Program-made: the position numbers and the translations under genes
Notes under the pieces: generated by a model
Seen by the model: only the letters and a program-made list of their open reading frames with translations
Told to the model about the DNA's origin: nothing
Database searches by the model: none
NCBI GenBank assembly: GCA_022539475.1
Contig: VCMS01000030.1
Location: 372,001 to 436,000, forward strand
From: Gracilaria domingensis
Taxonomy: Eukaryota > Rhodophyta > Florideophyceae > Gracilariales > Gracilariaceae
Direction of reading: 5' to 3'
DNA: 64,000 bases
Shown: positions 37,888 to 63,232 of the stretch, one piece after another
How the letters are laid out: every line of letters begins with the position of its first letter
Position numbering within the stretch: the stretch's first letter is position 1

Positions 37888-37896
37888 CGATCTGCT
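37888..37896. repeat. Left 9-bp target-site duplication of the MULE
   Basis: CGATCTGCT, identical to 44106-44114 on the other side of the element. Confidence 0.97.
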
Positions 37897-38106
37897 GGCA
37901 AGTGCCGAATCGACACGACGTCGCCGACGTAGGACCCCCCTCCAATCAGGGAGTGGGGTTCAACATTGGATACCCTGATAAATGCGCCCTGAGAGCAGGT
38001 CGAGCTCCCGACCAACCACCTCCCCATATTACGCCTTCAACCCAATAGTACAGCGGGGTTCAACATCGCGTTCCTTTCGCCCAACCGTACATAACCAAGT
38101 CAGAAG
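37897..38106 (+). repeat. MULE left terminal inverted repeat, 210 bp
   Basis: It begins GGCAAGTGCCGAATCG and ends CCAAGTCAGAAG. It contains two direct copies of GGGGTTCAACAT exactly 100 bp apart (37955-37966 and 38055-38066). Confidence 0.97.
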
Positions 38107-38356
38107 TTCAGTAAAGGCGCGCTTTTCAAACAAAACGGATGCTCTTCCTCTCTCTTCTCTTCCTCGCCCGATGATCTGCCACCCCAATTCTCCCCATCAA
38201 GATATTCAAAAGCTCCCCACAAAGACATTCAAAAGCTCTCGTGACAGATCATAAGCGCAGAACTAATTAATTATTACTATCATAAGTGTCTACTCTTCTC
38301 GGTAAGCACTCCTTTCAACAAACAAAACAAAATATTAACAAGTATGCTAATACATC

Positions 38357-41300
38357 TCAGTTTCTTTGTTCAATAATGTCAAGTGCCTTCGAAATCGCAG
38401 CTGTTATTGCAAGACGAGACACAGGCGCATCTGTACCATCACGACTTTGAGATCCTTGAGATACATTGATTGATCCTGTATCCTTATCTACTGTGTAATC
38501 GTCTTTTGAGGCTATCTTTCTTTTCTTCGATGCAAAACGTTCTGTATAGGACTTCTTCCGTTTTGACGGCCTCACATTTGCTCTATTGGGTGCCTGAATA
38601 ACATTTCTAGAGCTCTGCTCCCATCGCAACATTTCGTTCTGCGGGTTGGAACTTTCACCAACCTTGAATTGGTTGAAGAAAGATAAAGATGGTAACCGAC
38701 CGTTATTATAGCTTTCCATGGAAATTCGAAGAACATTCTGAAAGTGATCGACAGCGTATGGTCCCATTCCTGATGTAACACGTTTGATTTGTTCGAACAA
38801 CGCATATGAGTCAGACCATTTTACGCAGGAACCAACCTCCTGTTCTGCAGACTGCTTTAGAAAGGAATCCACATCGTTCCCGTCCGATTGCTCTATCGTT
38901 GAGCAAAGTCCTGACTTCATTTGTTCAGTCAACTCAATGAGATCGAGCACCTTGGCTTCCTTTCGAAGACTACAAACACGAAGGTAGCCGAATTCTTGTG
39001 AGTCGGCCTTCCAATAGTCATCAAAGAAGGCTTCGATTTCAATGTAGTCATCCAATACGTCCTTTAGACTTGGGTGTTGCTGTGAAATCTCGCCGTAGAC
39101 CATCGCACATCGAACAATGTGACGGCAAGGGAAACCCATGGAACCGGTCTTTCGACAGTCACAGTACACCATGAGCTCGCTGTCACCTAATTCCTCGCTC
39201 TCCACATCCTTTCGAGCGAACAATACCGTCAGGGTCCTGCGTTCTTGTGGAGGGGGAGAGTCGAACTTGCGGAGCAGGTGTATGCTCCACGTGATTTTAA
39301 ACATAGCAACTGATTTGATGTTTGCTTCATCATCGGCGGAAAGCTCTGGCCAATCTACTTCGCTGATAGGGAGAACGCAAGCTGCCGAAACTACATAGTT
39401 CTTGGAGGGCACCACGCTTATCTCCTTAAACTTTGTGAGGCAGTAGCTGGTGTACTCCGCAATTAGATAGTCCAGTATTTCGGGAGGGAGAGGAAGCTGG
39501 CAATCTCTAATTGATCTGAATCTGGAGCTGGCGGGGGACATCGACCGTAGCCGTGATTCGTTGCGTTCTGCTAATCGTTTTGACGTCAGCCACTTCAATT
39601 GCTTTGGTATAGCAGAGAAGGGGACCTTCTTCGCCAAGATATAGGCCCTGTATCCAGCGTTAGAAGATTCTGTATACCCTGTTCCCTGAAAAAGGAAGAG
39701 GCGAGGGACTGCTGCATTTCGGAAGCATGCGACAAGTAGATATGGCCTTTTGGTATACAAGAATGAATACCAGTTAGGAATCTTCTGTGTTAACCCCTGG
39801 AAGTATCGGTTGTGGAACTCATCTCTTCGGGTGATAAAGGAGGATATAGAGCGCGACCTCCTTAGATTGAAGAGGTCTCGTGACATGTCATCGCACCAAT
39901 TTGGACGCCCGATTGTTGCGCACCAGGTAACGACATTCGACATCTGTTTCTGGTTTAGATGCCATTCGTCAAGAGAAATGAAAGATGTCTCGAACACCTT
40001 TTCTGTTGCTGCAATGCAGGCAGTGCTTTGATCCATTGATATAAGAGCTGGTGATATGGGAATCATGGACTTAAAACGTGTTAGAATCTCAGTGAAGTCC
40101 TCCTCGGACTCCCCACTGATGAATCCCATAAAGTATGTTAAGGTAAACCCGTCGTTTGCTCTTCCATTAATTGTGAAAAGGGGGAGCCCGTACCGATTCG
40201 CGACCGCTTTACAATCCACAGAAACTCCTGGTAAAACCCCGTAGCGTTTATAATCCTCCAGCCACTCCTTTAAAGCCCAGCAAACAGATGTCATCCGCCC
40301 CTGTCCATCACAACTGAAAGAGAACTTGTTCTGTGAGTCCTCTTCGTGCAGTGCCATTAGAGTTTCTAGTAGCTTCGTACACTCAAGATCTTTGGGGTTA
40401 GTTACAGAGCGGTTGTAACCAACCATCTGTCTCACCGATCTCACATTGATCGGAACGCCGTACTTGTCCGACAGAAACCGCACCGTGTCCCCAAGGTTCA
40501 TGTGCAGTGTATTTGTCATGTGAAGCGCTTCTGACCGCATACCCGCGGAAAGTTGTCTGATACCACCGTGGTCCATGGATGGAGGGTGATTATGCTTGGC
40601 CTCTCTAAAGTCCCCTACGTAGCATCTTCCATCTTCTTCTTTTTCGGGAGTTAACGTCTTTATAGTTAGCGAGAAGCTGCAAAGCTGTTTCTCACTACGC
40701 TTGCGACATTTCAAGATACACTTCTTGAGCACGCGGCTGTCTTCTACGTTCCTGCCTTCCTGATCTGTTGCTGTACATTTCTCACCAACAAATATAGATG
40801 TCCTGCACTTCAGCCTGTACCCAAGACACTCTGAAATGTACCTAACTTCCTTCACAACGTCTTGACCGGCTGCATTTAGTTCCAGGCTCTTGAAATAAGC
40901 TATGACAGCTGCTTTAAAGACACTGTTGACATCCAACTTCTCTTGTCCTGCTGCCAGAGCAGAAGCCTGCGCTTCTTCCGTGGGAGACTGAGGCTCCAAA
41001 ATACTGCTGAGAGAACCATCACCGGTTTCCTCCCTCTTCGAGAATAACACCAATTCATTAGGAAGCTCCTCGTTCTCATCTAAGAACAGAAACCTCTCGA
41101 TTAGTTTTGACGCGTCTTCGCTCTCACCATTCTCCGGAAGCTCGAACATCTGTAGTTCTTCTCGGTCCGGTAGTTCTCCTTGGTCCGTAGTGCTCAGTAC
41201 AGCAGGTATGAGACTATCACCTTCCTTACAAATCGTATCCACGGTTGGAATCCCTTGAGAACCAAATTTAATCTGCCCCATTCCATTCTGGCCGTGCACA

Positions 41301-43645
41301 GGGCCCGCTCCATTTCTTTGTTTGACGTCGCTGACGTCAAATATATATCCGACGTCATTTTGGAGGGAATTGACACTAGCGCAAGGCGTCCATAGAGTCT
41401 CTGTTTCAGCTGTGGATGGCATCGAAGTGCCATGAACAGGTTTCTTGGCCTTGATATGGAACAGCATAGGTATATTTGGGCCCCTGTCAGTGGAGAAATG
41501 GCCAGTGCTGGAGGGGAAACCATTTTGAACAACGACACCATCATGAGAGACGGTAACTTCTCCTTCATTCAACACGGAACCTAAAGGTCGTGGTGGGAAA
41601 CTCTTCGCATACAATGTGTCCCAGTAGCTTTGCCTCTGCCCCTTAACAGTTTCCCTAAAAGCATTAAACTGTTTGGCCATCCTGTCCGTCATTCTTGTCT
41701 TTCGATCCTGAACAGTAGCCTCATCCACCATCTGTGGATCGTGAGAATGGTTAGAGTTGACTGCAACCAACCAACTATTAGAGTCCAATGTAGGAAGCGA
41801 CACCACAATACTCGATGGGCATTTGTTCTTATGTTGTGGACATCGAAATCGCGCAGTCAGAAGACGTCCATCGTGCTTAGAACGCTTTCGAACGTACCGA
41901 AAGTAGTGTAGAGTGTACTGGAATCCAGTCCGCTGTTCCATTGATGAAACAAAATCCATCACATCCTTCGTTTCGCCAATGTAGTGTCCAGGACCACGTA
42001 CATCATTACGAGATAGCCTGCTATCCAGCTTAAAGGACCGTTCAATTACTTCTGACAACAATTCTTCCAGTAAGCTCACGACTAAGCTCTGTACCATACA
42101 GGGCTTTATCTCTCTCTTTCCTAACTGAAAATCAATAGGAGTTTCGAACCTCACTCTCGGTGTTGAAAGTCTTACAGGCATCTCTGGCAGGAGAGAGTTC
42201 TCATACTCCACCCTTGCGCGCACAATTGCGCGTACCTCCCTCGAGGTAAGCCTCCTGCCGGCGTTTATCTGAAATCCATCAATGCTAGTCATTGAAAGAG
42301 CAGACATGCTTCCAGTAAGAGAGCTCGTGCTTTCCATGACGTCATTTACGTGCACGGAGCTCTCAAGCACCTGCGTTTCAGGTTCACATGCATCACCTTC
42401 ATCCTCTTTTGAGCCCCCAATTCCCCCTTCCGAATCGCTCACACTATGTTCTTCAAAGCTCCCGCCATCATCAACGCTCACACATTCTGGACCCGCGTTT
42501 TCTTTCGAAAGAACGTCCTTCACCAAATCACAAGCCTCTCCAACAAGCAACGAAGTTTTAGCTACTTCACGATTCCTATCCCGACTTTTTTGCGCACTGT
42601 GTACCTTGCTGATCCCTACAAAGTCCCATCGCTTCAAAATAGTGTGTCGCATCTTCTTCAATCTCGTGAGACCATCTTTCCGCAGCTCAGAGTAGTGATC
42701 GCGATGTAGCAATCGGTAACTACCCAGCACCGATTCGGAGACTTCATCAGTTCCGTGGAACACGGCAGCCGAAAGAACCTGTAGCATCCTACTCTTTATT
42801 GCAGCCCAACGAATTCGTTCTGACAACATCTTTTTGTATCCAGACTTGTAAGTAGCTTTCGGAGAAAATCCAGTGTCAGCGGCAAACTCAGTTGCCATTG
42901 ATATGACATAGCACCCGCAACTGAATCCATCGCGTTGTCTTTTGTAACCTCTTACTGCTAGAAGATAGTTTTTGTTTGATACTACAGCGCTGCACGATCC
43001 ATTTAGAATTGCAAATTCGAACGCCTCTCTGAAGAATTCCAGTACCTCGGAAGGGCATTCGTAGCCAAGACTGTCACCAAAATACACAGTTGGCTTTTCT
43101 CGTCGACATCGAGACGAACCAATGTACTTCTTTCCCACAAGAACACCCCAGTGGTTACCGCTGATCAAAACAGGCACTAGAACTGTGTGTATTGCTACGT
43201 CTTCATCGCAACTGGCGTTCAATGTGAATGAATTTTTAAGTTGCTTTAGATACTGTTCTCGATCAGAAGGGTTGCATTTTAGGCGTCTTACATACCCTCG
43301 TAAAGCAACACCGGTGTCACATGGGCAAAAACAAACTCCTGGAGACGGTATCATGTCCATGAATGCTGAAGTTATCAAATCGGAGCATAACTGATCTCCG
43401 TCACTGGAGCTATGCACGAGCGAAATGGGATGTTCCTCGCTTTTTTCTGCGCGAACAATAGAATAAACGTGTTTATGTATGATAGAACACTTTTGCACGT
43501 TGTCTGTCACATTCAGCCCCGTTTGCCTCACTAAACGGGCATAAAACGATTTGCACATTGACGATGATTCTGGATCATCGTCATTTGCGGTGACCTTGTT
43601 AAGAACATATTGATCTAAAACAAAAGAAGGAAAATCTGGATTCAC
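38357..43645 (-). CDS. MULE transposase fused to an N-terminal Ulp1-like cysteine protease
   Basis: The 1,762-residue protein reads, in order: (1) a C48/Ulp1-like protease at about 150-250 with the full catalytic set H165 (GNHWGVLV), D191 (YFGDSLGY), Q237 and C243 (QRDGFSCGCYVIS); (2) a Ser/Glu-rich linker; (3) a FAR1/WRKY-GCM1-like zinc domain at about 580-640 (FRCPQHKNKCPSS ... NSNHSHDP); (4) a second one at about 940-1030 (KKCILKCRKR ... AKHNHPP); (5) the MULE DDE domain with candidate Asp at about 1143 (SVDCKAV) and 1204 (SMDQSTA), then SLDEWHLNQKQ; (6) a SWIM finger at about 1495-1510 (CDCRKTGSMGFPCRHI); (7) a basic tail with nuclear-localisation-like clusters (RPSKRKKSYTERFASKKRK). It would excise and reinsert the element; the protease may process SUMO-like tags on host or self proteins (inference). 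No stop or frameshift interrupts it. Confidence 0.95.
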   Translation of the reverse strand: MNPDFPSFVLDQYVLNKVTANDDDPESSSMCKSFYARLVRQTGLNVTDNVQKCSIIHKHVYSIVRAEKSEEHPISLVHSSSDGDQLCSDLITSAFMDMIPSPGVCFCPCDTGVALRGYVRRLKCNPSDREQYLKQLKNSFTLNASCDEDVAIHTVLVPVLISGNHWGVLVGKKYIGSSRCRREKPTVYFGDSLGYECPSEVLEFFREAFEFAILNGSCSAVVSNKNYLLAVRGYKRQRDGFSCGCYVISMATEFAADTGFSPKATYKSGYKKMLSERIRWAAIKSRMLQVLSAAVFHGTDEVSESVLGSYRLLHRDHYSELRKDGLTRLKKMRHTILKRWDFVGISKVHSAQKSRDRNREVAKTSLLVGEACDLVKDVLSKENAGPECVSVDDGGSFEEHSVSDSEGGIGGSKEDEGDACEPETQVLESSVHVNDVMESTSSLTGSMSALSMTSIDGFQINAGRRLTSREVRAIVRARVEYENSLLPEMPVRLSTPRVRFETPIDFQLGKREIKPCMVQSLVVSLLEELLSEVIERSFKLDSRLSRNDVRGPGHYIGETKDVMDFVSSMEQRTGFQYTLHYFRYVRKRSKHDGRLLTARFRCPQHKNKCPSSIVVSLPTLDSNSWLVAVNSNHSHDPQMVDEATVQDRKTRMTDRMAKQFNAFRETVKGQRQSYWDTLYAKSFPPRPLGSVLNEGEVTVSHDGVVVQNGFPSSTGHFSTDRGPNIPMLFHIKAKKPVHGTSMPSTAETETLWTPCASVNSLQNDVGYIFDVSDVKQRNGAGPVHGQNGMGQIKFGSQGIPTVDTICKEGDSLIPAVLSTTDQGELPDREELQMFELPENGESEDASKLIERFLFLDENEELPNELVLFSKREETGDGSLSSILEPQSPTEEAQASALAAGQEKLDVNSVFKAAVIAYFKSLELNAAGQDVVKEVRYISECLGYRLKCRTSIFVGEKCTATDQEGRNVEDSRVLKKCILKCRKRSEKQLCSFSLTIKTLTPEKEEDGRCYVGDFREAKHNHPPSMDHGGIRQLSAGMRSEALHMTNTLHMNLGDTVRFLSDKYGVPINVRSVRQMVGYNRSVTNPKDLECTKLLETLMALHEEDSQNKFSFSCDGQGRMTSVCWALKEWLEDYKRYGVLPGVSVDCKAVANRYGLPLFTINGRANDGFTLTYFMGFISGESEEDFTEILTRFKSMIPISPALISMDQSTACIAATEKVFETSFISLDEWHLNQKQMSNVVTWCATIGRPNWCDDMSRDLFNLRRSRSISSFITRRDEFHNRYFQGLTQKIPNWYSFLYTKRPYLLVACFRNAAVPRLFLFQGTGYTESSNAGYRAYILAKKVPFSAIPKQLKWLTSKRLAERNESRLRSMSPASSRFRSIRDCQLPLPPEILDYLIAEYTSYCLTKFKEISVVPSKNYVVSAACVLPISEVDWPELSADDEANIKSVAMFKITWSIHLLRKFDSPPPQERRTLTVLFARKDVESEELGDSELMVYCDCRKTGSMGFPCRHIVRCAMVYGEISQQHPSLKDVLDDYIEIEAFFDDYWKADSQEFGYLRVCSLRKEAKVLDLIELTEQMKSGLCSTIEQSDGNDVDSFLKQSAEQEVGSCVKWSDSYALFEQIKRVTSGMGPYAVDHFQNVLRISMESYNNGRLPSLSFFNQFKVGESSNPQNEMLRWEQSSRNVIQAPNRANVRPSKRKKSYTERFASKKRKIASKDDYTVDKDTGSINVSQGSQSRDGTDAPVSRLAITAAISKALDIIEQRN

Positions 43646-43784
43646 AGTTTGTTAGTGAATGTGGAAATGAACCATTTGTGGGGGATTTTCATACTTACCG
43701 AGAGCCATTTGTGACGGTATTGCAGTCAAGAAGTATTGTTTTTGGAAGACATACCGAAACAAAGAGCACTGAATAAGTGTTGTC

Positions 43785-43830
43785 GATGATGTCGTCGGCG
43801 GTGTCATCGACGGTGTCGTCGATGGTATTT
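43785..43830. repeat. Degenerate GTCGATGG/GTCATCGACG short repeats in the MULE leader
   Basis: Three or four imperfect copies of a roughly 12-bp GTCGTCGATGGT-like unit lie between the right terminal repeat and the transposase ATG. Confidence 0.6.
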
Positions 43831-43895
43831 CAAATTTGGGGCACGAACGACGTCGTTCATTTTGAGCTGTACACCAGTGACACTAGACTGTTCTC

Positions 43896-44105
43896 CTTCT
43901 GACTTGGCTATGTACGGTTGGGCGAAAGGAACGCGATGTTGAACCCCGCTGTACTATTGGGTTGAAGGCGTAATATGGGGAGGTGGTTGGTCGGGAGCTC
44001 GACCTGCTCTCAGGGCGCATTTATCAGGGTATCCAATGTTGAACCCCACTCCCTGATTGGAGGGGGGTCCTACGTCGGCGACGTCGTGTCGATTCGGCAC
44101 TTGCC
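43896..44105 (-). repeat. MULE right terminal inverted repeat, 210 bp
   Basis: Reverse complement of the left repeat except one A/G difference within the CATAACCAAG segment. It lies upstream of the transposase gene, so it probably contains its promoter. Confidence 0.97.
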
Positions 44106-44114
44106 CGATCTGCT
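44106..44114. repeat. Right 9-bp target-site duplication of the MULE
   Basis: CGATCTGCT, identical to 37888-37896. Confidence 0.97.
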
Positions 44115-53830: not shown

Positions 53831-55525
53831 GACGGGGGCTGAGGGTGTTTGGGAGGAGGGAAGCGACGGAGAAAGCGGTGGGGGTTGGGGGGCGGGGGCG
53901 GGAGGAAGGGGGGGGGGGGGGGGGGGGGGGAGGAAGAGGGGGGGAAGAGCGTAGAGGCGAGGCGGATATGAAACGGCGCGGCGGGGCGGAGCAAACAGCC
54001 GCGCAAGTCGCGAGGGCGCGGCGGTGCGCGGCTCTGGCGCGGCGACGCAGTCGGTTGCGGCGGCGCGCCGCGGTGGCGCGCATCGTCCACGCGTGGACGG
54101 GCGGCGGCGCCTTTTCCACTGCACCTGAGCCGTCGCGCTCCTCGCTGCCACCAGCGAGTGGGATCCGTGCTCACCCACTCAGCGCGCCGCAGCGCGCACA
54201 CGCGTCACGGCGCGCGCGCCCCATTACAGCGGCCGCGCATCTTGCGCGCGCGCGCCGCCGCGCAATGACAGTTGCCGCCGTTGATTTGCGACGCTGTCGT
54301 GGCGACGCTGTCGTGGCGACGCGTCGTGCCGCGACGCGACGCGCCGCGACGCGACGCGACGCGACGCGACGCGACGCGACGCGCCGCCGCCGCCACGCCG
54401 CGCTCTGCCGGAGCTCGCTGCCGCCGCACCGTTTGGGCGCCCGCCGCGCTCGCCGCGCCCGCCGCGCTCGCCGCGCCCGCCGCCGCCGCAGCGCGTGTCT
54501 GGCCTCGCGCGGAGCGCCGCACTCGCGAGCGCTCACCGCGCCGGCTGTAAGCATCGTGCGCTCTCGCCATGCGCACTGTACCAACCGTCCCCGTGCGCTC
54601 CCCCGACTAGTCCACGCCAGCTTTGCAATCGTGAGATGCTGACAGAAACCGCCAACTTCTGCCGCATCTGTATAACCGTGTGCCGCCCGCTTGCGCTCGC
54701 ACTCTGCTCAAGCCGCGCAAATTCCGCGTACACTTCGTCTTCCTACGCGCGCATGCGCTGAGCGCGCTGCGCGTCGCGCGCCCGACTCGCTGCCGCCCCG
54801 GGTGCCGCACAGCCGCCGTGCCCGGGCTGCACCGCGTGCAGTCCGCATCATCAGTTGCATCGCTATCGCAAGCATCTTGCGCGCCCCCACATGGCATGGC
54901 AGCGCGCCGGCTTTCCCGCTCCGTGTGCGCGTGTACACGTGCCGCCGTTCATCTGAATTATTTAATTTCAGTTTTCGGGCTTCCAGTGTGTGGCGGCTGT
55001 AAGCAACGCTGCGCTACCCGCCAAATTTTGCATTCGCGTGGCGCCAGCGCCAAAAAGTAGCGCGGACACGCAAACAGTCGTCGACCGCCGCTGCCGCATA
55101 TCTCTCCTGTCCTCCGCGAGCCTCATCGCCGCCGCCGCTGCCGCCGCGTGCATTCGCCGCGCCGTTACCATCGCCCCGACCGCCATCGCGCTCAAGCAAT
55201 CAAAAGCGCCTCTGCTGCCTGTCTGCCACAGCCGCTTCCCCATTCTCTCAACTGTCGCCGTACGCATCGGCTTTTGGCTTGGTCCGCCGCACCAAGCTCC
55301 ACCTTCTTTTGTACCTCGTCTGCGTCTCGCCACTCATACAGCCTCCACTTAAACAGCCTCTACTCCTTCAGTAGCGCACCTCCTTCTCTCCAGCTTGTCA
55401 ACATTGTCAACCTAATTCCCGTCTTCGCGCTCGCCCCTTCTCACAGCTGCTGCCCACGCTGCGTTTCGCGCTGCGCTCTCGTACTAGAAAGTAACATTTC
55501 ACATCCGCCACCATTTTGACACGTC
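53831..55525. promoter_or_regulatory. GC-rich divergent region between bZIP and Sen1-like genes
   Basis: A 23-base G run (53908-53930, C on the bZIP coding strand) lies 78 bp upstream of the bZIP ATG. Short-period repeats occupy 54291-54477. The right end just before the Sen1-like ATG carries TGACACGTCATGACG, two ACGT-core-like boxes. Long open frames on both strands here are composition artefacts. Confidence 0.5.
54291..54477. repeat. Cluster of GC-rich short tandem repeats
   Basis: Two copies of ACGCTGTCGTGGCG (54291-54318), seven perfect copies of GCGAC (54346-54380), and two copies of an 18-bp CGCCGCGCTCGCCGCGCC unit (54442-54477). Confidence 0.85.
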
Positions 55526-58500
55526 ATGACGCCAAAGAGAAAGAATTCAAGTCGCCTTCGCGCCAACGCGGCTGCGAACGACCATCCCAAACTGCCACAA
55601 CCTCCCGAGTACATCATGTCCTTGAAGACAAACGACCCTAAGAGTTTTGTCGTTGAACTCGTCTCCTTCTTTCGAAAGCAGAAGCATCATCCAGAGGTGT
55701 GTGTGGGATGGTGGTGCTGCTTTCCAAAGTACATGTCGTACTTACTCACTTACCTCTCAGAACCTTTTGATGACGACCGACAAACCTGGGAGCAATTTAG
55801 ACGTCAAGTTGCCATCCAGATAAAGAACTGTCGCCAATGCGCTACCAAGTACCATCAAGCTGTGGCCGCGTGGGAAGTCGGCGACGAGTTGGCAAGCTGG
55901 CCGAAAAGTGTTGCCAAGAGACGGGTTCAAGCCTTGCTTGATTGGGATTGCGATCGTGTAATTCCCAGCATCCTCATTGGCGCCGATATCAACGAAAACG
56001 ACCCCGCACAACGGGGCGCCATGATGCAATGTAGAGAAGCCTTTCTGGAGGCCTTAATAAGTCTTCGATTGTGCACATGCGCCAAGTTCTGTGCCGCACT
56101 TGGCACCGTTTTCCGGAAGCGTACTCCAGCTCGCAATGCGGAAGACGTCATTCCGTTCATCCGAAGTCTTAAATTTATTCCCTCGGGCTTGCTCGCGCTG
56201 TGCTTTCACGATGTGCCCGCTGTTCAGGTATGGGCTCTTCGTATTTACAACGATTCTCGCGGTTTGCAAGCAGGCTTACCCGCGCTGCTCTATCTCTTTC
56301 GAAAAGAGCTCAAACGCATCAACGAATTGCAAGAGGCACTGGAGTGCGATACATATCTTGATAGCTCAGATTATGAAAGCGACATTTGGAAACTTCAGTC
56401 ACGTTGGGAGAGCTTCTCGACTTTGTTTTGCAAGGCAGACCAGGGGACTATGTATTCTTTTGTCGAAGACGGACACCATCTTAAGCTTATGAGGGCTGTT
56501 TCTTTGGCCACGGCGTCAAAGTTCGAAAAGGTTGTGAAGGCTGGCTGCAGAATTTTCCGCCTTCTTCTGCGAAGAGTGTCATACGATGTTTTGTTCGTTT
56601 CCAGCTCATTTACACCGAAGGAACTCCTGGATCATGTGCTTTTGGGGGTCAGGAGACCGTCCAATTCATCTAATACAAGAGAGAACCTTCTTGGGCTTCT
56701 GAGTCCTGTTTTCACCCTTGTTCGCAGTAATTGCGACAAAGAAAAGGTGGCGCGATTGTACACTAGATGCCTGCAAAAGTTGTACGACATTGCGGGCATA
56801 GCGAAAATTTGTGGTTTGACTACACAGGCCGAAGCATTGGAAACGTTACCGGGTATTGAGAACAATTCTAGAGATCGACACACTCTTCTCAAGGTTACCT
56901 CGCAGCTTTTGTTGTTGTTTTACAGGTACTCGGTCCCCGCGTTGCCTGTTGAAGACCCAGTCATGATTTCAAACATTGTCATCTCCGCTGTCTGGGAAGA
57001 TGCGACAAGTGACTGGAGTTGGGATCTGCTTCGGTTTGTACTTCTTACGGATGCGTTTAACATCATCAGGAATATTAAACCATCGAAAGACGTTGAAGTA
57101 ATATCCTCAACGTTTCTCGACGAAAGAGTTACAATTGGAGAAAAGCGTGCGGACGAGGAACATCTTTTGTCGGAGTTATTGCACATCGGTGGGAAAAGCA
57201 AACCCAAAAGGACATGGGTGGGACCTTTATGGCGAAAGGTGTTATCCGGGACTCATATCAGAAGTCACGATTCTCATAGTGACGCTGTCATGGAGAGAGA
57301 AATGTCTGTTCTCTTGGACTTGCATAGAGTGATCGGGATTCTAGACAACAGAATGGTTCAAGCAACGTTTGATGACGAAGAGGGTGTTTCTCAATCTTAT
57401 GGACAATCCTCCCCTTCGATAATATCGAAGCAGAAGAGGCGCCTTGTAGAATCTATCAACACCGTTCAGGAACTTACTTGGTCACGGTTTCGACGGATCT
57501 GCGATATGAGGTCGACCCAAACCTGGATGCGTCTGTTGCCGTTTCATGCGGCTCATCTGTTATCGAGCGCGAAAAAGGACGTCAGTGTGCAATGCCTGGC
57601 TGCAATGCGGAGATCGTTTGGACTTCAGAATAATTCGAGTTTGAGTAGTCAGTCAAAGCTTCTTGCTACTGCCGTTAAGAAGAATCCAGAGGCGGCATCC
57701 ATGCTTGTTGATGGCGTCTATTCTTCGCTGCGCATCATGTATGCTCTTGGCGACATGGTCTCGCCAAGGACGTATGCTTCCTTTTTCCTGTGGTTCCAAA
57801 TCCTTCATGATTCAGGCTACACTTCTCTGTTGCGTGCTAGGTCCACATCGCGCTGGGCGATGGCTGTAGTTCAATGTTTCTCTGTGAACTGGAAGAGTTT
57901 TGAGAAGAACATCGGGGAAGAGGAGTATGGTCAAACGTGCTGTCAATTCTTCACCAAACTGCGAGAGATATGGAGTATACTATACGCTGACGCGAATCGC
58001 AAAGCTTCCCCCCAATCACAGGCGTTAGTTGTTCGAAACGCGACGAAAGGACTGTTTAGCATGCACTGCATGAAAGATTCAGGTGTCCTCGCTTCTTGGG
58101 CATACACAATGGCATCAATGGCTTCTGAGTGGAAGACTTCGGAGGAGCATCGTTCTGCCATGTGCAAAATTATCGCATCACATGCCAACGGTAGCTCAGA
58201 AGGTAATCGGATGACATTCGAACAATGTGAAATGTTAGTTCAGAAGGGGGGTCTTGATGCAGCGAAGTCGTTTTTGAAGGGGTGGTCGAAAATTGATAAG
58301 AAGGCGACGGGCAATGACGTAAAGCCCAAGGTTCTCAACAGCACGAGGATTGATCACTTTTTCCCGCGGAAAGCACCTGAACCGAGCAGGGATAGACATC
58401 CTCAAATCCACGGGATCAGAAACAACACGATCACTCGGGGACCTATTCGTAATCCACGGCCCAGACTTCCGCTGGCTAGAACTATATTGAAGCCCGTGAG

Positions 58501-61500
58501 GGCAAATGGACCTTTGAGTGACTTGAGAAAGGAGTTGCTCGGCGATGCACCTGTGCGGCCAAAGGCTCGTCGCGGGCTGCAACCAGAAAGCCAGCCAACC
58601 AAAACCCCATTTGAGATTCAGATTGAGCAAGCAAGGGCAAAGAAAGCTGCTCGCTTGGTTGCAGAGAGTAATCGGGTGCTACAGTCCATGGATGTCAATG
58701 ACAAACTAAGCAGTAGAAGCCCATCTAAAGAACCACCTGTGGATTTAGAAGGGACTGCGGCACGAGAGGTGACTCCAAGCCCAGATCCAGAACAAGAGCT
58801 TCTTCGTGAGTGCACACTGCCGAAAAGTGTTAGAAATCTGCCACCACGCGATATGGATCTTGTGTACCGAGCTCTTATTCACAAGACAGAGCCGAAGGTG
58901 TCGGTATCAGGCGATTTCAGAGAATGTGGTAAGACATACGCAAATGTTGAAGAGTACGTGGAATTCTGGGAGCCACTGCTTATATCAGAGTGCCGCGCTT
59001 CGATTCAAAACACAGTGAGGGAAGAAAATAACTTTGCCTCGCAGTTTCAGCACGACGCGAACGGTTACAGGTATTGCCGCACTGCTTTTGAGGTGCAAGA
59101 ACCACCTTCAAGTATTGGATACTTTCATCAGCTACGTTTAAACTTCTGTCCGGACCAAGGAGGAATTCCGAAAGAGTTTGGGCAGGACCTATCGAGTTCA
59201 CAATTCTCCGTTTTTCAAGCTCAGCCAACAGACCTAGTATACCTCCGAATACCTCCGGCAAGGTGTACAGAACGCGATGGAGCGCCCCAAGCGGAAGCTA
59301 TAGCACTCGTCTCTACCTCGAAGGTGGAAAAGGGCGTTCGTGAGCTGGTCCTACAAATATGTTTTGACGATGGGCTTGATAAGGCTCCTGGGAAAGGACG
59401 ACGCATTCAGATAAGTCGTCTATCCAGCCTGGTCACATTTCAGAGGCAGATTGAAGCATTGTGGTCGATTTCTAATCTTCCAGATGGCATACTATGGCCG
59501 ATACTTGACCCATCTCAGGGCTTGTCGGTAAATGACAGGGTTTATGTCAGCAACCGAGAGACGTCTACCGGTCTTGCTGCTGCTCCATCTGAATTCATTT
59601 GTGATCTTGAGAAAAGCGGAGGCCTCAACCACTCTCAAGCCGATGCCATAGGCAATGTTGTTCGCTCGTCGGGACCGTTACTCCAATACCATGGGCCAAA
59701 AACAAATGAAAGGTTCTTTAAGAAGAATCATGGAGCTCTGAGCCTAATCCAGGGCCCACCAGGTACAGGAAAAACGTCTACCATCATGAACATGATTTCC
59801 GCATTCATCACTACTTCACAGAATCGCTCTTTTCCGCGCGCTGTCCGGGTTTCTGTGGATGACGTGCCTCTTAGGATACGAATTCCTGCCATACGTGTGC
59901 TCGTGTGTGCTCCATCTAATGCGGCTGTCGATGAAATCATGTCACGGGTTGTTGGACAGGGCTTGACGTTTCCTGGAGGCACTAAGGCATGCCCGAGAAT
60001 AGTTCGAGTGGGTGCCGGTACGACTATTGACCAACTTAAGCGGTTTGAGCTTCGCTTACTTGCAAAGTCACGTGGACAGCGGAATCAAGCTGAATCTGAC
60101 CTCAAGGATACAAAGACACGGTTAGATAATCAGTGTCGAGCCCTACAACAAGTGAATGAAAGGATATCCAAAGCACATACTCAAAGATGCGTATTAATTG
60201 AGAAGGAAGCACAAAGTATTAAGTTGCAAAAGAGTTCCTCCCCGGAACTTCTGCGACAAATACAGTCTTTGACGGAACGATTAACCATCTTGCACGAAGA
60301 GAAAGATGTACTCAAGGGTCACCTTTGTCAAGTTCGAGATGAACGAAAGGTTCAAGACCGCGCCATACGGATGGAAAAGATGAAGCGCATGAGCAGAATA
60401 TTGAATCAATCTAACTTAGTCTTTTCTACGTTGAATTCAGCTGGACATGAGATGATGAAGACTCTGGGTGTCAGTTTTGATGTGATTATCATCGATGAGG
60501 CGGCCCAAAGCATCGAACCGGAAAGTCTTATTCCCATGACTCTCGGAGCAAAGGGTAGAAGCACTTCCAAATTCAGCCATGTTGTTCTGGTGGGAGATGC
60601 ACAACAGCTACCAGCAACAGTGGTGTCTACTAATCCTTCCGTTGTGAAGCATCTCCGGACTTCGCTTTTTGAACGTATGTGCTTATCAGATCGACATCGA
60701 GCAACGATGCTGAATGTACAATACCGCATGCATCCAACGATTTCTAGCTTTCCCAATAAGCAATTTTACTTCGGGGAGATACGAGATGGGCCAAAAGTAG
60801 CGGAGAAGCATATGACGAAATGCTTTCATCGCGACAGCAAAAGAAGATTTGGACCGCTGACCTTCTACGATACCTCAAAACTGAATCATGTAGAGAAGCG
60901 AACGGCAAAGGGGTCTGTAAGCAACTTATCTGAAGCTCGTCTCGTAATTAAGATTCTCAGAAGCTTGATCCGCTCGTACAGGTCTGAGGATTTTAATGAC
61001 AGTATTGTTCTTCTAAGTCCTTATCGTCAGCAAGTTTTTCTGTTACAGCAACTTGTTCGTGAATGTCGGATCCTTAGCACAATGAACGTTGAAGTAAGTA
61101 CTATAGACGGTATTCAGGGTCGTGAGAAACAGATTGTTGTTCTCAGTACCGTGCGAGGCGGAAATGCGAAGGATATTGGTTTCGTGAACGACGAAAGGCG
61201 GATGAATGTAGCGCTTACAAGGGCTCAGCATTCTTTGCTTGTCGTGGGAAGCGCTTTGGTTTTGAGTCGAACATCCATGCCGTGGCAGGGACTCGTTAGC
61301 CACTGTCGCGAAAACTCCCATCTAATTTCCATATCGACGAATTGTGACTCCTTCTTTGCTGTTAAAGACAATGTGGGTGGCCGTGACACAAATGCGGGTA
61401 AGTATTCTGCTGCCAAAGTTGTGTTGCAGGGCTTGTCTTGTGCTGTTCCGAACCGTGGAGCCCGGGTCAAAGACGAAGACGTTCCGAATGGTGGCGATCC

Positions 61501-63232
61501 AAGTCGTTCTAGAGGAAATTTGACAATGGAGAATACCTGCACGAGATCATCGGCGATAGTTCTCAAAGAGACAAAGAAGCCACTGTTGAGGTCATGCAAG
61601 CGACCAGCTACCCCTGAAAGGACCGACAAGATTACAAGCGATGTGAAGCGGATAAAAGGAAATCCAGAAGATGCTGTTGGTTTGACTGCAGTAGAGGGAA
61701 ATCTGAAGATCAGCGCTTCGATTCGAAGTGAAGCGAATGCATGTGGAGCTCACGCGAAGCGTACAACTCAAAGCGGAGATGTAGGGGGAAAACAGAATGT
61801 CGATGATGAGCAAGAGAAGACCGGAAAGGACGTTTATGAGCTCAGAAAGCGGAACAGTTTGCAAGAATCCCATGTCAGTGTTCCTGTCGATGGTGGTACA
61901 GGAGGACGACCGGAAGTAGCCAAAAAACAGACCAAGGACTCTGCCGGGAATTCGATGAAAACGTTGCCGCTAAGATCGAACGTGCTGATAAGTATTCCTT
62001 CGACTACGGAAGACAGGGCGCGGAAGCCAAAGGCCGGGGGTTCTACTGTCGTCCCATCAAACCCTGTGCGGGCCCAAAAAGTTGAGAAAGGCCCTGAAAG
62101 GCCTTTTGTTCCGTGGAAGAGGAAGACGAACTCCACCCCCAAAGATGGCTCCCCGTTCGAAAAGGATCCGGCAGCCCGGTTTGTACCACCGGGGATGTCC
62201 AAAAGTCCAAACTCGAAGAGGCAGGACTGGAATGCAAGCAAGTTAGCCGAAAACACCACTGAACACTTAAAGAAAATGAAGAAAATGGTCCTCCAGTCTC
62301 CTCAGGGTACACCATCAGATCTACGCTCCCGTGCTGTCAGGTCCCCTCACTTGAACCAAACACCTCCACGGTTCACAACTCCGCATGGGCCAAAGACAGA
62401 TGTTCTTTCTCGGCTTGGGAATAAAGGACAGCTTACTCGAAGTGGAAATAGTCGTCAGAATGCACCTTGGGAGCAAGCGCAAGCACTTCACCATGCTACA
62501 AGGGACCAGTCCTCTTCAAAATGGAGTCAAAGCTTGGCTAGCAGCGGCTACTCTCCTCGAAGTAGACCCCAAACAAATATGCGACAAGATGGAACAAGCA
62601 AGGGTATGCCTTCGTCGAAAGGCTTTCTTAGGGTACGCCCAGAGATTCGAAAGATGAATCAAAAGAACCAAAGAAACTACACTGTTCATGGTCCAGGCCA
62701 TGGATCGAGCAACCCATCCCGGAACAGGAGAAAGGACAACTTGGGTTCAATGCCGATGACCAATGTTAATCACAGAGGATTCGTGAAGAAAATTGATCGT
62801 GATGAACAGCGAATGCGAGGTAACACGTTTCGAAAACGAAGAAAAGAAATGTCGAATGCCAAACCTCAATCCGCTCCCGACAGGAACGGAAGGACGAGTA
62901 CTGGTAATCATCAAGGCAATCGTGCTCCGCCCCGGCACGGTCCATTTGTACAAACAAGGAGCATGTACTCCAGTAGGAACGGGGCGAACCCAAACCTAAA
63001 CTTAGCAAATAATGACACTAACACAACCTTCGGACACAGGCCTGCAGCTAGCCATAACCATCAAAGCTTAACTTTCGCGGCAACTCAATCTAACTTTGTA
63101 CAGCAAAGCTCCAGGACCAGAGTGACTCCGAAGAATCAAAAGGGTATGGCTTCCGGGTCTCTTCTACAAAGACTACAGGCAGACCAAGCACGGACTTTGA
63201 ATATAGTGAACCGTGCTATAGAGAGAAGATAG
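55526..63232 (+). CDS. SEN1: Sen1/senataxin-type RNA:DNA helicase
   Basis: The 2,568-residue protein has a long helical N-terminal region (about 30-1000) like the Sen1 N domain, which binds RNA polymerase II. An SF1B helicase core runs at about 1370-1960. Motif I is [12 protein letters not shown] (about 1409), Ia-like VLVCAPSNAAVDEI, then a coiled stalk insertion (about 1510-1630), motif II IIIDEAAQSIEPES (about 1657), motif III LVGDAQQLPATV, IV-like NVQYRMHPTI, motif V VSTIDGIQGREKQIVVLS and motif VI NVALTRAQHSLLVVG (about 1890). The last 600 residues are basic, Gly/Asn/Arg-rich and disordered. The family unwinds RNA:DNA hybrids, ending transcription and resolving R-loops in the nucleus. It is intact and intronless over 7.7 kb. 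The first ATG follows the promoter boxes immediately. Confidence 0.95.
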   Translation: MTPKRKNSSRLRANAAANDHPKLPQPPEYIMSLKTNDPKSFVVELVSFFRKQKHHPEVCVGWWCCFPKYMSYLLTYLSEPFDDDRQTWEQFRRQVAIQIKNCRQCATKYHQAVAAWEVGDELASWPKSVAKRRVQALLDWDCDRVIPSILIGADINENDPAQRGAMMQCREAFLEALISLRLCTCAKFCAALGTVFRKRTPARNAEDVIPFIRSLKFIPSGLLALCFHDVPAVQVWALRIYNDSRGLQAGLPALLYLFRKELKRINELQEALECDTYLDSSDYESDIWKLQSRWESFSTLFCKADQGTMYSFVEDGHHLKLMRAVSLATASKFEKVVKAGCRIFRLLLRRVSYDVLFVSSSFTPKELLDHVLLGVRRPSNSSNTRENLLGLLSPVFTLVRSNCDKEKVARLYTRCLQKLYDIAGIAKICGLTTQAEALETLPGIENNSRDRHTLLKVTSQLLLLFYRYSVPALPVEDPVMISNIVISAVWEDATSDWSWDLLRFVLLTDAFNIIRNIKPSKDVEVISSTFLDERVTIGEKRADEEHLLSELLHIGGKSKPKRTWVGPLWRKVLSGTHIRSHDSHSDAVMEREMSVLLDLHRVIGILDNRMVQATFDDEEGVSQSYGQSSPSIISKQKRRLVESINTVQELTWSRFRRICDMRSTQTWMRLLPFHAAHLLSSAKKDVSVQCLAAMRRSFGLQNNSSLSSQSKLLATAVKKNPEAASMLVDGVYSSLRIMYALGDMVSPRTYASFFLWFQILHDSGYTSLLRARSTSRWAMAVVQCFSVNWKSFEKNIGEEEYGQTCCQFFTKLREIWSILYADANRKASPQSQALVVRNATKGLFSMHCMKDSGVLASWAYTMASMASEWKTSEEHRSAMCKIIASHANGSSEGNRMTFEQCEMLVQKGGLDAAKSFLKGWSKIDKKATGNDVKPKVLNSTRIDHFFPRKAPEPSRDRHPQIHGIRNNTITRGPIRNPRPRLPLARTILKPVRANGPLSDLRKELLGDAPVRPKARRGLQPESQPTKTPFEIQIEQARAKKAARLVAESNRVLQSMDVNDKLSSRSPSKEPPVDLEGTAAREVTPSPDPEQELLRECTLPKSVRNLPPRDMDLVYRALIHKTEPKVSVSGDFRECGKTYANVEEYVEFWEPLLISECRASIQNTVREENNFASQFQHDANGYRYCRTAFEVQEPPSSIGYFHQLRLNFCPDQGGIPKEFGQDLSSSQFSVFQAQPTDLVYLRIPPARCTERDGAPQAEAIALVSTSKVEKGVRELVLQICFDDGLDKAPGKGRRIQISRLSSLVTFQRQIEALWSISNLPDGILWPILDPSQGLSVNDRVYVSNRETSTGLAAAPSEFICDLEKSGGLNHSQADAIGNVVRSSGPLLQYHGPKTNERFFKKNHGALSLIQGPPGTGKTSTIMNMISAFITTSQNRSFPRAVRVSVDDVPLRIRIPAIRVLVCAPSNAAVDEIMSRVVGQGLTFPGGTKACPRIVRVGAGTTIDQLKRFELRLLAKSRGQRNQAESDLKDTKTRLDNQCRALQQVNERISKAHTQRCVLIEKEAQSIKLQKSSSPELLRQIQSLTERLTILHEEKDVLKGHLCQVRDERKVQDRAIRMEKMKRMSRILNQSNLVFSTLNSAGHEMMKTLGVSFDVIIIDEAAQSIEPESLIPMTLGAKGRSTSKFSHVVLVGDAQQLPATVVSTNPSVVKHLRTSLFERMCLSDRHRATMLNVQYRMHPTISSFPNKQFYFGEIRDGPKVAEKHMTKCFHRDSKRRFGPLTFYDTSKLNHVEKRTAKGSVSNLSEARLVIKILRSLIRSYRSEDFNDSIVLLSPYRQQVFLLQQLVRECRILSTMNVEVSTIDGIQGREKQIVVLSTVRGGNAKDIGFVNDERRMNVALTRAQHSLLVVGSALVLSRTSMPWQGLVSHCRENSHLISISTNCDSFFAVKDNVGGRDTNAGKYSAAKVVLQGLSCAVPNRGARVKDEDVPNGGDPSRSRGNLTMENTCTRSSAIVLKETKKPLLRSCKRPATPERTDKITSDVKRIKGNPEDAVGLTAVEGNLKISASIRSEANACGAHAKRTTQSGDVGGKQNVDDEQEKTGKDVYELRKRNSLQESHVSVPVDGGTGGRPEVAKKQTKDSAGNSMKTLPLRSNVLISIPSTTEDRARKPKAGGSTVVPSNPVRAQKVEKGPERPFVPWKRKTNSTPKDGSPFEKDPAARFVPPGMSKSPNSKRQDWNASKLAENTTEHLKKMKKMVLQSPQGTPSDLRSRAVRSPHLNQTPPRFTTPHGPKTDVLSRLGNKGQLTRSGNSRQNAPWEQAQALHHATRDQSSSKWSQSLASSGYSPRSRPQTNMRQDGTSKGMPSSKGFLRVRPEIRKMNQKNQRNYTVHGPGHGSSNPSRNRRKDNLGSMPMTNVNHRGFVKKIDRDEQRMRGNTFRKRRKEMSNAKPQSAPDRNGRTSTGNHQGNRAPPRHGPFVQTRSMYSSRNGANPNLNLANNDTNTTFGHRPAASHNHQSLTFAATQSNFVQQSSRTRVTPKNQKGMASGSLLQRLQADQARTLNIVNRAIERR

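Follow-up and report, generated by a model that had tools for sequence, protein, structure and literature searches.

A Mutator-like element with an Ulp1-like protease domain ahead of its transposase in the red alga Gracilaria domingensis

The window analysed here is a stretch of 64,000 nucleotides of the Gracilaria domingensis contig VCMS01000030.1. It contains a Mutator-like element (MULE) that spans positions 37897-44105 (6209 bp), ends in long terminal inverted repeats (TIR) and is flanked by 9-bp target-site duplications (TSD). The features of the element are, in positions of the window:

37888..37896, no strand: left 9-bp TSD CGATCTGCT, exact
37897..38106, plus strand: left TIR, 210 nt, on the 3' side of the transposase (inverted-repeat comparison)
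38357..43651, minus strand: open frame of 1764 codons from stop to stop, with Ulp1-like protease, weak zinc-finger-like regions, MULE transposase and SWIM (reading of open frames)
39113..39178, minus strand: SWIM zinc finger, residues 1492-1513 (Pfam, under cut-off)
39668..39670, minus strand: Glu1328, likely catalytic (conservation among relatives)
39947..40198, minus strand: MULE transposase domain PF10551, residues 1152-1235 (Pfam)
40031-40033, minus strand: Asp1207, likely catalytic (conservation among relatives)
40214-40216, minus strand: Asp1146, likely catalytic (conservation among relatives)
41741..41902, minus strand: weak FLYWCH-like zinc finger (Pfam E 0.017, under cut-off)
42662..43474, minus strand: Ulp1/C48-like cysteine protease domain, about residues 60-330 of the frame (family alignment and profile)
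43636..43698, minus strand: putative intron GTAAGT...CAG, 63 nt (read by eye)
43699..43708, minus strand: putative first coding exon, 10 nt, ATGGCTCTCG (read by eye)
43896..44105, minus strand: right TIR, 210 nt, on the 5' side of the transposase (inverted-repeat comparison)
44106..44114, no strand: right 9-bp TSD CGATCTGCT, exact

The two TIR are far beyond chance, as the runner-up inverted pair in the 6.6-kb region has 29 nt and 72% identity. An earlier note on this DNA described a MULE whose 210-nt ends differ once, with a perfect 9-bp duplication and a 5.3-kb gene free of interruptions. Direct comparison bears out the ends (209 of 210 positions identical, with the sole mismatch at position 198), CGATCTGCT stands at both flanks, and the frame on the minus strand is uninterrupted over its 1764 codons. 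The assignment to the MULE is likewise upheld by the 9-bp TSD, the long TIR and the MULE domain, as well as by the conserved DDE and SWIM residues, the three copies in the genome and the empty sites of one of them. The G+C content is 46.8% in the element versus 51.1% in the window. In keeping with a red-algal host, the genome has 11 matches to the light-harvesting family, one of which finds its best solved counterpart in chain 7y5e_72, part of a Porphyridium complex.

The gene of the window copy likely starts with the ATG at 43708, given the 63-nt intron and the 10-nt exon; read by eye, the CAG that closes the 63-nt stretch joins ATGGCTCTCG in frame with the 1764-codon frame. This putative start faces the side of a formate-tetrahydrofolate ligase gene (PF01268). 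The element is upstream of that gene, 72 bp from its earliest possible ATG (44187). Elsewhere in the window, a frame of 2570 codons at 55520-63232 contains AAA_11/AAA_12 helicase domains, presumably UPF1/senataxin-like.

Judged by the Pfam scores, the match to the MULE domain is marginal in the window copy and clear in a relative on contig C7 (contigs of the assembly are designated C below). The whole window protein scores 27.4 bits with PF10551, 0.2 bits short of the cut-off of 27.6, its C-terminal half alone scores 27.8 bits and the sister C7 element 48.5 bits. The SWIM finger of the window protein scores 13.9 bits against a cut-off of 19.6. The residues D1146, D1207 and E1328, which we take to be the catalytic triad of MULE transposases, are kept in 13 of 15, 15 of 15 and 14 of 14 places with data, respectively, and the C-C-C-H set of the SWIM is complete in 11 of 12. 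No relatives of the transposase were found in viral contigs and phages.

The genome contains at least three full copies of the element: the window copy, C13:23922-30138 and C6:49736-55948. An internal 1-kb probe recovers the same three copies and none further, a lower bound, and the search of the genome with the terminal repeat returns, besides the six ends, only a 128-bp match of 77% and a 34-bp match. The two other full copies have their own exact 9-bp TSD (TTACTTTCG and TGCAAAAAC), and all three TSD differ. The C6 copy lies in a repeat, and C59, C2 and C174 carry paralogous empty sites in which TGCAAAAAC stands once and no footprint is left. The single 9 bp at three related empty sites indicates that the C6 copy inserted cleanly. 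The joined flanks of the window and C13 copies match only themselves, so that the search for empty sites within the genome, which gave three for the C6 copy, gave none for the window copy. Insertion of these elements duplicates 9 bp of the target: the TSD are exact in every copy checked and empty sites exist for one copy. The repeat that harbours the C6 copy is present at several places, and the insertion adjoins a transposase remnant (L006, 669-1286) with a DDE_3 domain, presumably Tc1/mariner-like.

The window copy is the only one of the three with an open frame. The C6 copy is broken by one in-frame TGA, and the C13 copy has one TAG and one TGA in two matched parts and, within the transposase core, an inverted piece of about 0.6 kb. 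This inversion (L009, C13:23000-31000) covers element positions of about 2114-2728, and a short stretch, TGTTGCTG/CAGCAACA, recurs at either end of it in reversed orientation, as repair of staggered breaks would leave it. The window and C6 copies differ at 90 of 6209 positions (1.45%); with the inverted piece omitted, window and C13 differ at 103 of 5602 (1.84%) and C13 and C6 at 116 of 5602 (2.07%). Per 5602 sites, the changes unique to one copy are 36 in the window, 67 in C13 and 49 in C6. The 36 of the window copy comprise 13 synonymous, 20 nonsynonymous and three noncoding changes, with no stops, and the nonsynonymous deficit on this branch is not significant (P 0.17).

The earlier note took the element to be recently inserted, and this reading stands in part. 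In DNA transposons the identity of the terminal repeats is not reset at insertion, unlike in LTR elements. The mismatch at position 198 is common to all three copies and therefore predates them, which discards TIR identity as an insertion clock. The open frame was also rejected as proof of activity, since 28% of neutral simulations with 33 coding changes remained without a stop (P 0.28), so that an intact frame argues only weakly. The distances between the copies (1.45-2.07%) and the 36 unique sites of the window copy do not point to a fresh burst. The window element is intact and fairly young.

These same data bear on the possibility that the family is a fading relic, which stopped moving earlier and of which the window copy stayed intact by luck. 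Two of the three copies are broken, the copies have diverged as given above, the pattern of changes is near-neutral with a stop-free frame expected by chance in the proportion simulated, and the genome search found no short TIR derivatives. On the other hand, all the TSD are exact, the window copy retains its frame and ends, and the TIR of the window and C6 copies differ at 2 of 420 positions versus 88 of 5789 elsewhere (one-sided P 0.051). A relic of this kind is a serious possibility, falling just short of an even chance, and it is compatible with the explanation of the locus as a MULE with a fused protease. As a transposon, the window element is real, full-length, possibly mobile and otherwise ordinary.

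A sister MULE family, represented by L040 (C7:122945-129437) and L018 (C98), has the protease and the transposase in the same order. The C7 element has perfect 225-nt TIR and an exact 9-bp TSD, AAATTTACA. It differs from the C98 element by 10 mismatches over 5053 aligned positions, and the match stops exactly at the terminal repeat. This pair argues more strongly than the window copy for recent transposition in the genome. The protease and transposase parts of the C7 element lie in two frames. They would be joined into about 1700 residues by an intron of 83 nt, bordered by GTAAGA and GCAG and picked by consensus from 25 frame-keeping splice pairs; alternatively to a spliced fusion, the element may encode two separate proteins.

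The N-terminal domain of the window protein, on which the earlier note is silent, resembles the SUMO-removing enzymes of the Ulp1/C48 type, and its protease activity is a prediction. It carries His167, Asp193, Gln239 and Cys245, which presumably fill the His, Asp, Gln and Cys roles of the C48 catalytic set. In an alignment of open-frame members these four residues are invariant (12 of 12). The 12 are the window protein and 21 domain-bearing loci minus 10 omitted, namely nine interrupted by stops in this region and L052, in which the open frame begins late; a set picked for open frames favours intact catalytic residues. When broken copies are included, all four residues are kept in 10 of 15 places, and two of the four are lost in C256, which among those 15 is most closely related to the window copy. 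The profile of the 12 members matches, among the solved structures, C48 proteases with values from 3.5e-4 (the best) to 6.3e-4 (yeast Ulp1, 1euv), along with one unrelated chain at 0.44. Peptidase_C48 (PF02902) is matched by nine of the 12 aligned members, the best at 2.2e-5. For the window's own domain, Pfam yields nothing up to E 1; phmmer with this domain returned only two chains, of a deubiquitinase, with E 1 and 1.5, and a structure model of the protease region, made from the single sequence with no alignment, has a pLDDT of 37, too low to inform on the fold.

Genome-wide there are 35 Peptidase_C48 matches, four at places that resemble the window protease and 31 elsewhere. Sets of C48 matches with identical scores occur on different contigs (C30/C481, C359/C521, C117/C552 and C211/C333/C405), which suggests gene duplication, further mobile elements or haplotypes left uncollapsed.

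The relation between protease and transposase was followed over the whole genome (77,892,253 bases in 680 contigs). Residues 1-387 of the window protein match 40 places. Among 108 candidate transposase places, 27 were scored, and these 27 rows correspond to 26 places, with the C13 copy counting twice. A protease match lies within 3 kb upstream and on the same strand at 20 of the 26. The remaining six (C121, C269, C342, C22 (12,949), C360 and C140) lack a protease match within 3 kb; for C121 and C140 there is one about 12 and 14 kb off, respectively. Altogether 21 protease matches take part in these pairs; near the other 19 of the 40 there is no scored transposase. Distances between proteases and distances between transposases were compared in 15 places, that is, the 20 paired places minus C6, C13 and C98 (near copies) and C141 and C16 (incomplete stretches). 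The two sets agree closely, with a Mantel r of 0.933 and a rho of 0.914, none of 2000 permutations being as high, and in 13 of the 15 places the nearest neighbour is the same for both parts. These 15 places still include some close kin. With four of them dropped, r is 0.94 over 11 places, nine nearest neighbours agree and none of 5000 permutations is as high; with the window and C256 dropped too, r is 0.88 over nine places, seven neighbours agree and again none of 5000 permutations is as high.

The recurrence of the pairing and the agreement of the distances indicate that the association is old. The protease would already have been joined to the transposase in an ancestor common to many elements of this genome, rather than having been picked up by the window copy itself. 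That the feature in the window is a full-length MULE with a protease-transposase fusion of old origin is highly probable, if slightly less so in view of the two protease residues lost in C256.

The ratios of nonsynonymous to synonymous change (dN/dS) are less uniform. Two deep protease pairs, C121-C56 and C56-C78, give 0.05 and 0.11, which speaks for selection on the protease, although the values are rough since dS exceeds 4, and both pairs share C56. Among 13 protease pairs five are saturated, and the ratios obtained are 0.14, 0.43, 1.13, 0.05, 0.11, 0.36, 0.48 and 0.35. A value of 0.99 for the C7-C121 protease pair, from a query-anchored codon comparison, was discarded as distorted, the proper alignment giving 0.14. 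Between the window and C6 copies the ratio is 0.53 for the protease, 0.72 for the linker and 0.32 for the transposase. Within the family the ratios are weak proof of selection; those of close copies are not low and reach 1.13.

Capture of host genes is common in MULE, and the protease might be a fragment of a host ULP acquired by a transduplication like that of Pack-MULE, with no role in transposition. The Ulp1 of plant elements has been judged a probable product of repeated transduplication in the accessible part of PMC2528002, and 31 of the 35 Peptidase_C48 matches of the genome lie away from the places that resemble the window protease. Order and strand are nevertheless constant at 20 of 26 places, the protease and transposase distances co-vary, the catalytic set is retained throughout the open-frame members and the two deep pairs have a dN/dS of 0.05-0.11. 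A captured passenger of this kind is therefore quite improbable.

As a working mechanism for the fused protein, binding of the 210-nt ends may fall to the zinc-finger-like regions, and cutting and joining of the DNA to the DDE core. With less assurance, the protease would take SUMO, or a tag related to it, off the transposase or off host proteins that serve in silencing or repair; we incline slightly against rather than for this tag-removal role. It is a tentative proposal, somewhat under an even chance, that the Ulp1-like protease has stood lastingly at the N-terminus of the MULE transposase since before the present families split and has been kept by selection for helping transposition, for example through deSUMOylation of the transposase itself or of silencing proteins present at the element. 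The protease may instead act in cis, cutting the polyprotein to free the transposase and leaving tagged proteins aside. The N-terminal position of the domain in one very long polypeptide fits such cleavage, as does the long stretch after the protease, where dN/dS (0.72) exceeds that of the other two parts, whereas the Ulp1-bearing KIU/VANC of Arabidopsis is a separate gene product linked to anti-silencing, as described in the available sections of PMC13317346. Cleavage in cis is unlikely.

Ulp1-like domains occur in MULE, CACTA and Ginger transposons. Within Mutator elements, the accessible part of PMC2836005 lists them for hydra, lancelet, Arabidopsis, maize, rice and melon; the hydra and lancelet MULE carry the domain in a layout that may equal that of the window element. 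The same source describes Ginger1, in which the Ulp1 is on the transposase itself, as here, but is C-terminal and accompanies a transposase like a Gypsy integrase. MULE of melon, rice and grapevine with an Ulp1-like domain, elements with TIR included, are reported in the available text of PMC2528002 and are in this like the window element. The Arabidopsis KI-MULE, or Kaonashi (KIU), is also a MULE with an Ulp1-like domain (PMC2528002, PMC13317346, as far as accessible), but it is a non-TIR element whose ULP sits in a gene of its own, reversed relative to mudrA (PMC2528002). The TIR of the window element and its protease in frame with the transposase exclude it as a KI-MULE. The KIU proteins are tied to anti-silencing in Arabidopsis, and the role of their Ulp1 is reported as unknown in the sections available of PMC13317346.

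Among red algae, the accessible part of Dupeyron et al. 2019 (PMC6446971) tabulates the Rhodophyta "MULE-Cc" groups 36 (Jittery sub-group) and 38. By their description these resemble the window element in the red-algal host, the one ORF and the SWIM finger, as well as in the long TIR (192 and 500 bp; 244 and 640 bp). For group 38 a 9-bp TSD is listed, as in the window element, and for group 36 the table has only "various inserts, potentially host derived". The words "protease", "peptidase" and "ulp" are absent from the main text of PMC6446971. In a partial search of the open-licence literature no report was found of an N-terminal, in-frame and co-inherited Ulp1, and nothing was found in that literature for Ulp1 and transposase together with red algae, or likewise with diatom; PMC2725143, checked for C48, gave nothing.

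The presence of Ulp1 in MULE is already reported for plants and animals, and it is the domain layout of the window element that is noteworthy. In grapevine, according to the part of PMC2528002 at hand, the ULP follows downstream after the transposase ORF and may point either way, and its families are not monophyletic; in the window element, on the other hand, the protease is upstream, in frame and co-inherited. Here protease and transposase keep together in many diverged elements of a single genome, unlike the probable repeated captures of grapevine, and such co-inheritance is good material for asking whether deSUMOylation works within transposition. If the proposal is true, the removal of the tag would be a built-in step of transposition in these elements and not the work of a captured passenger.
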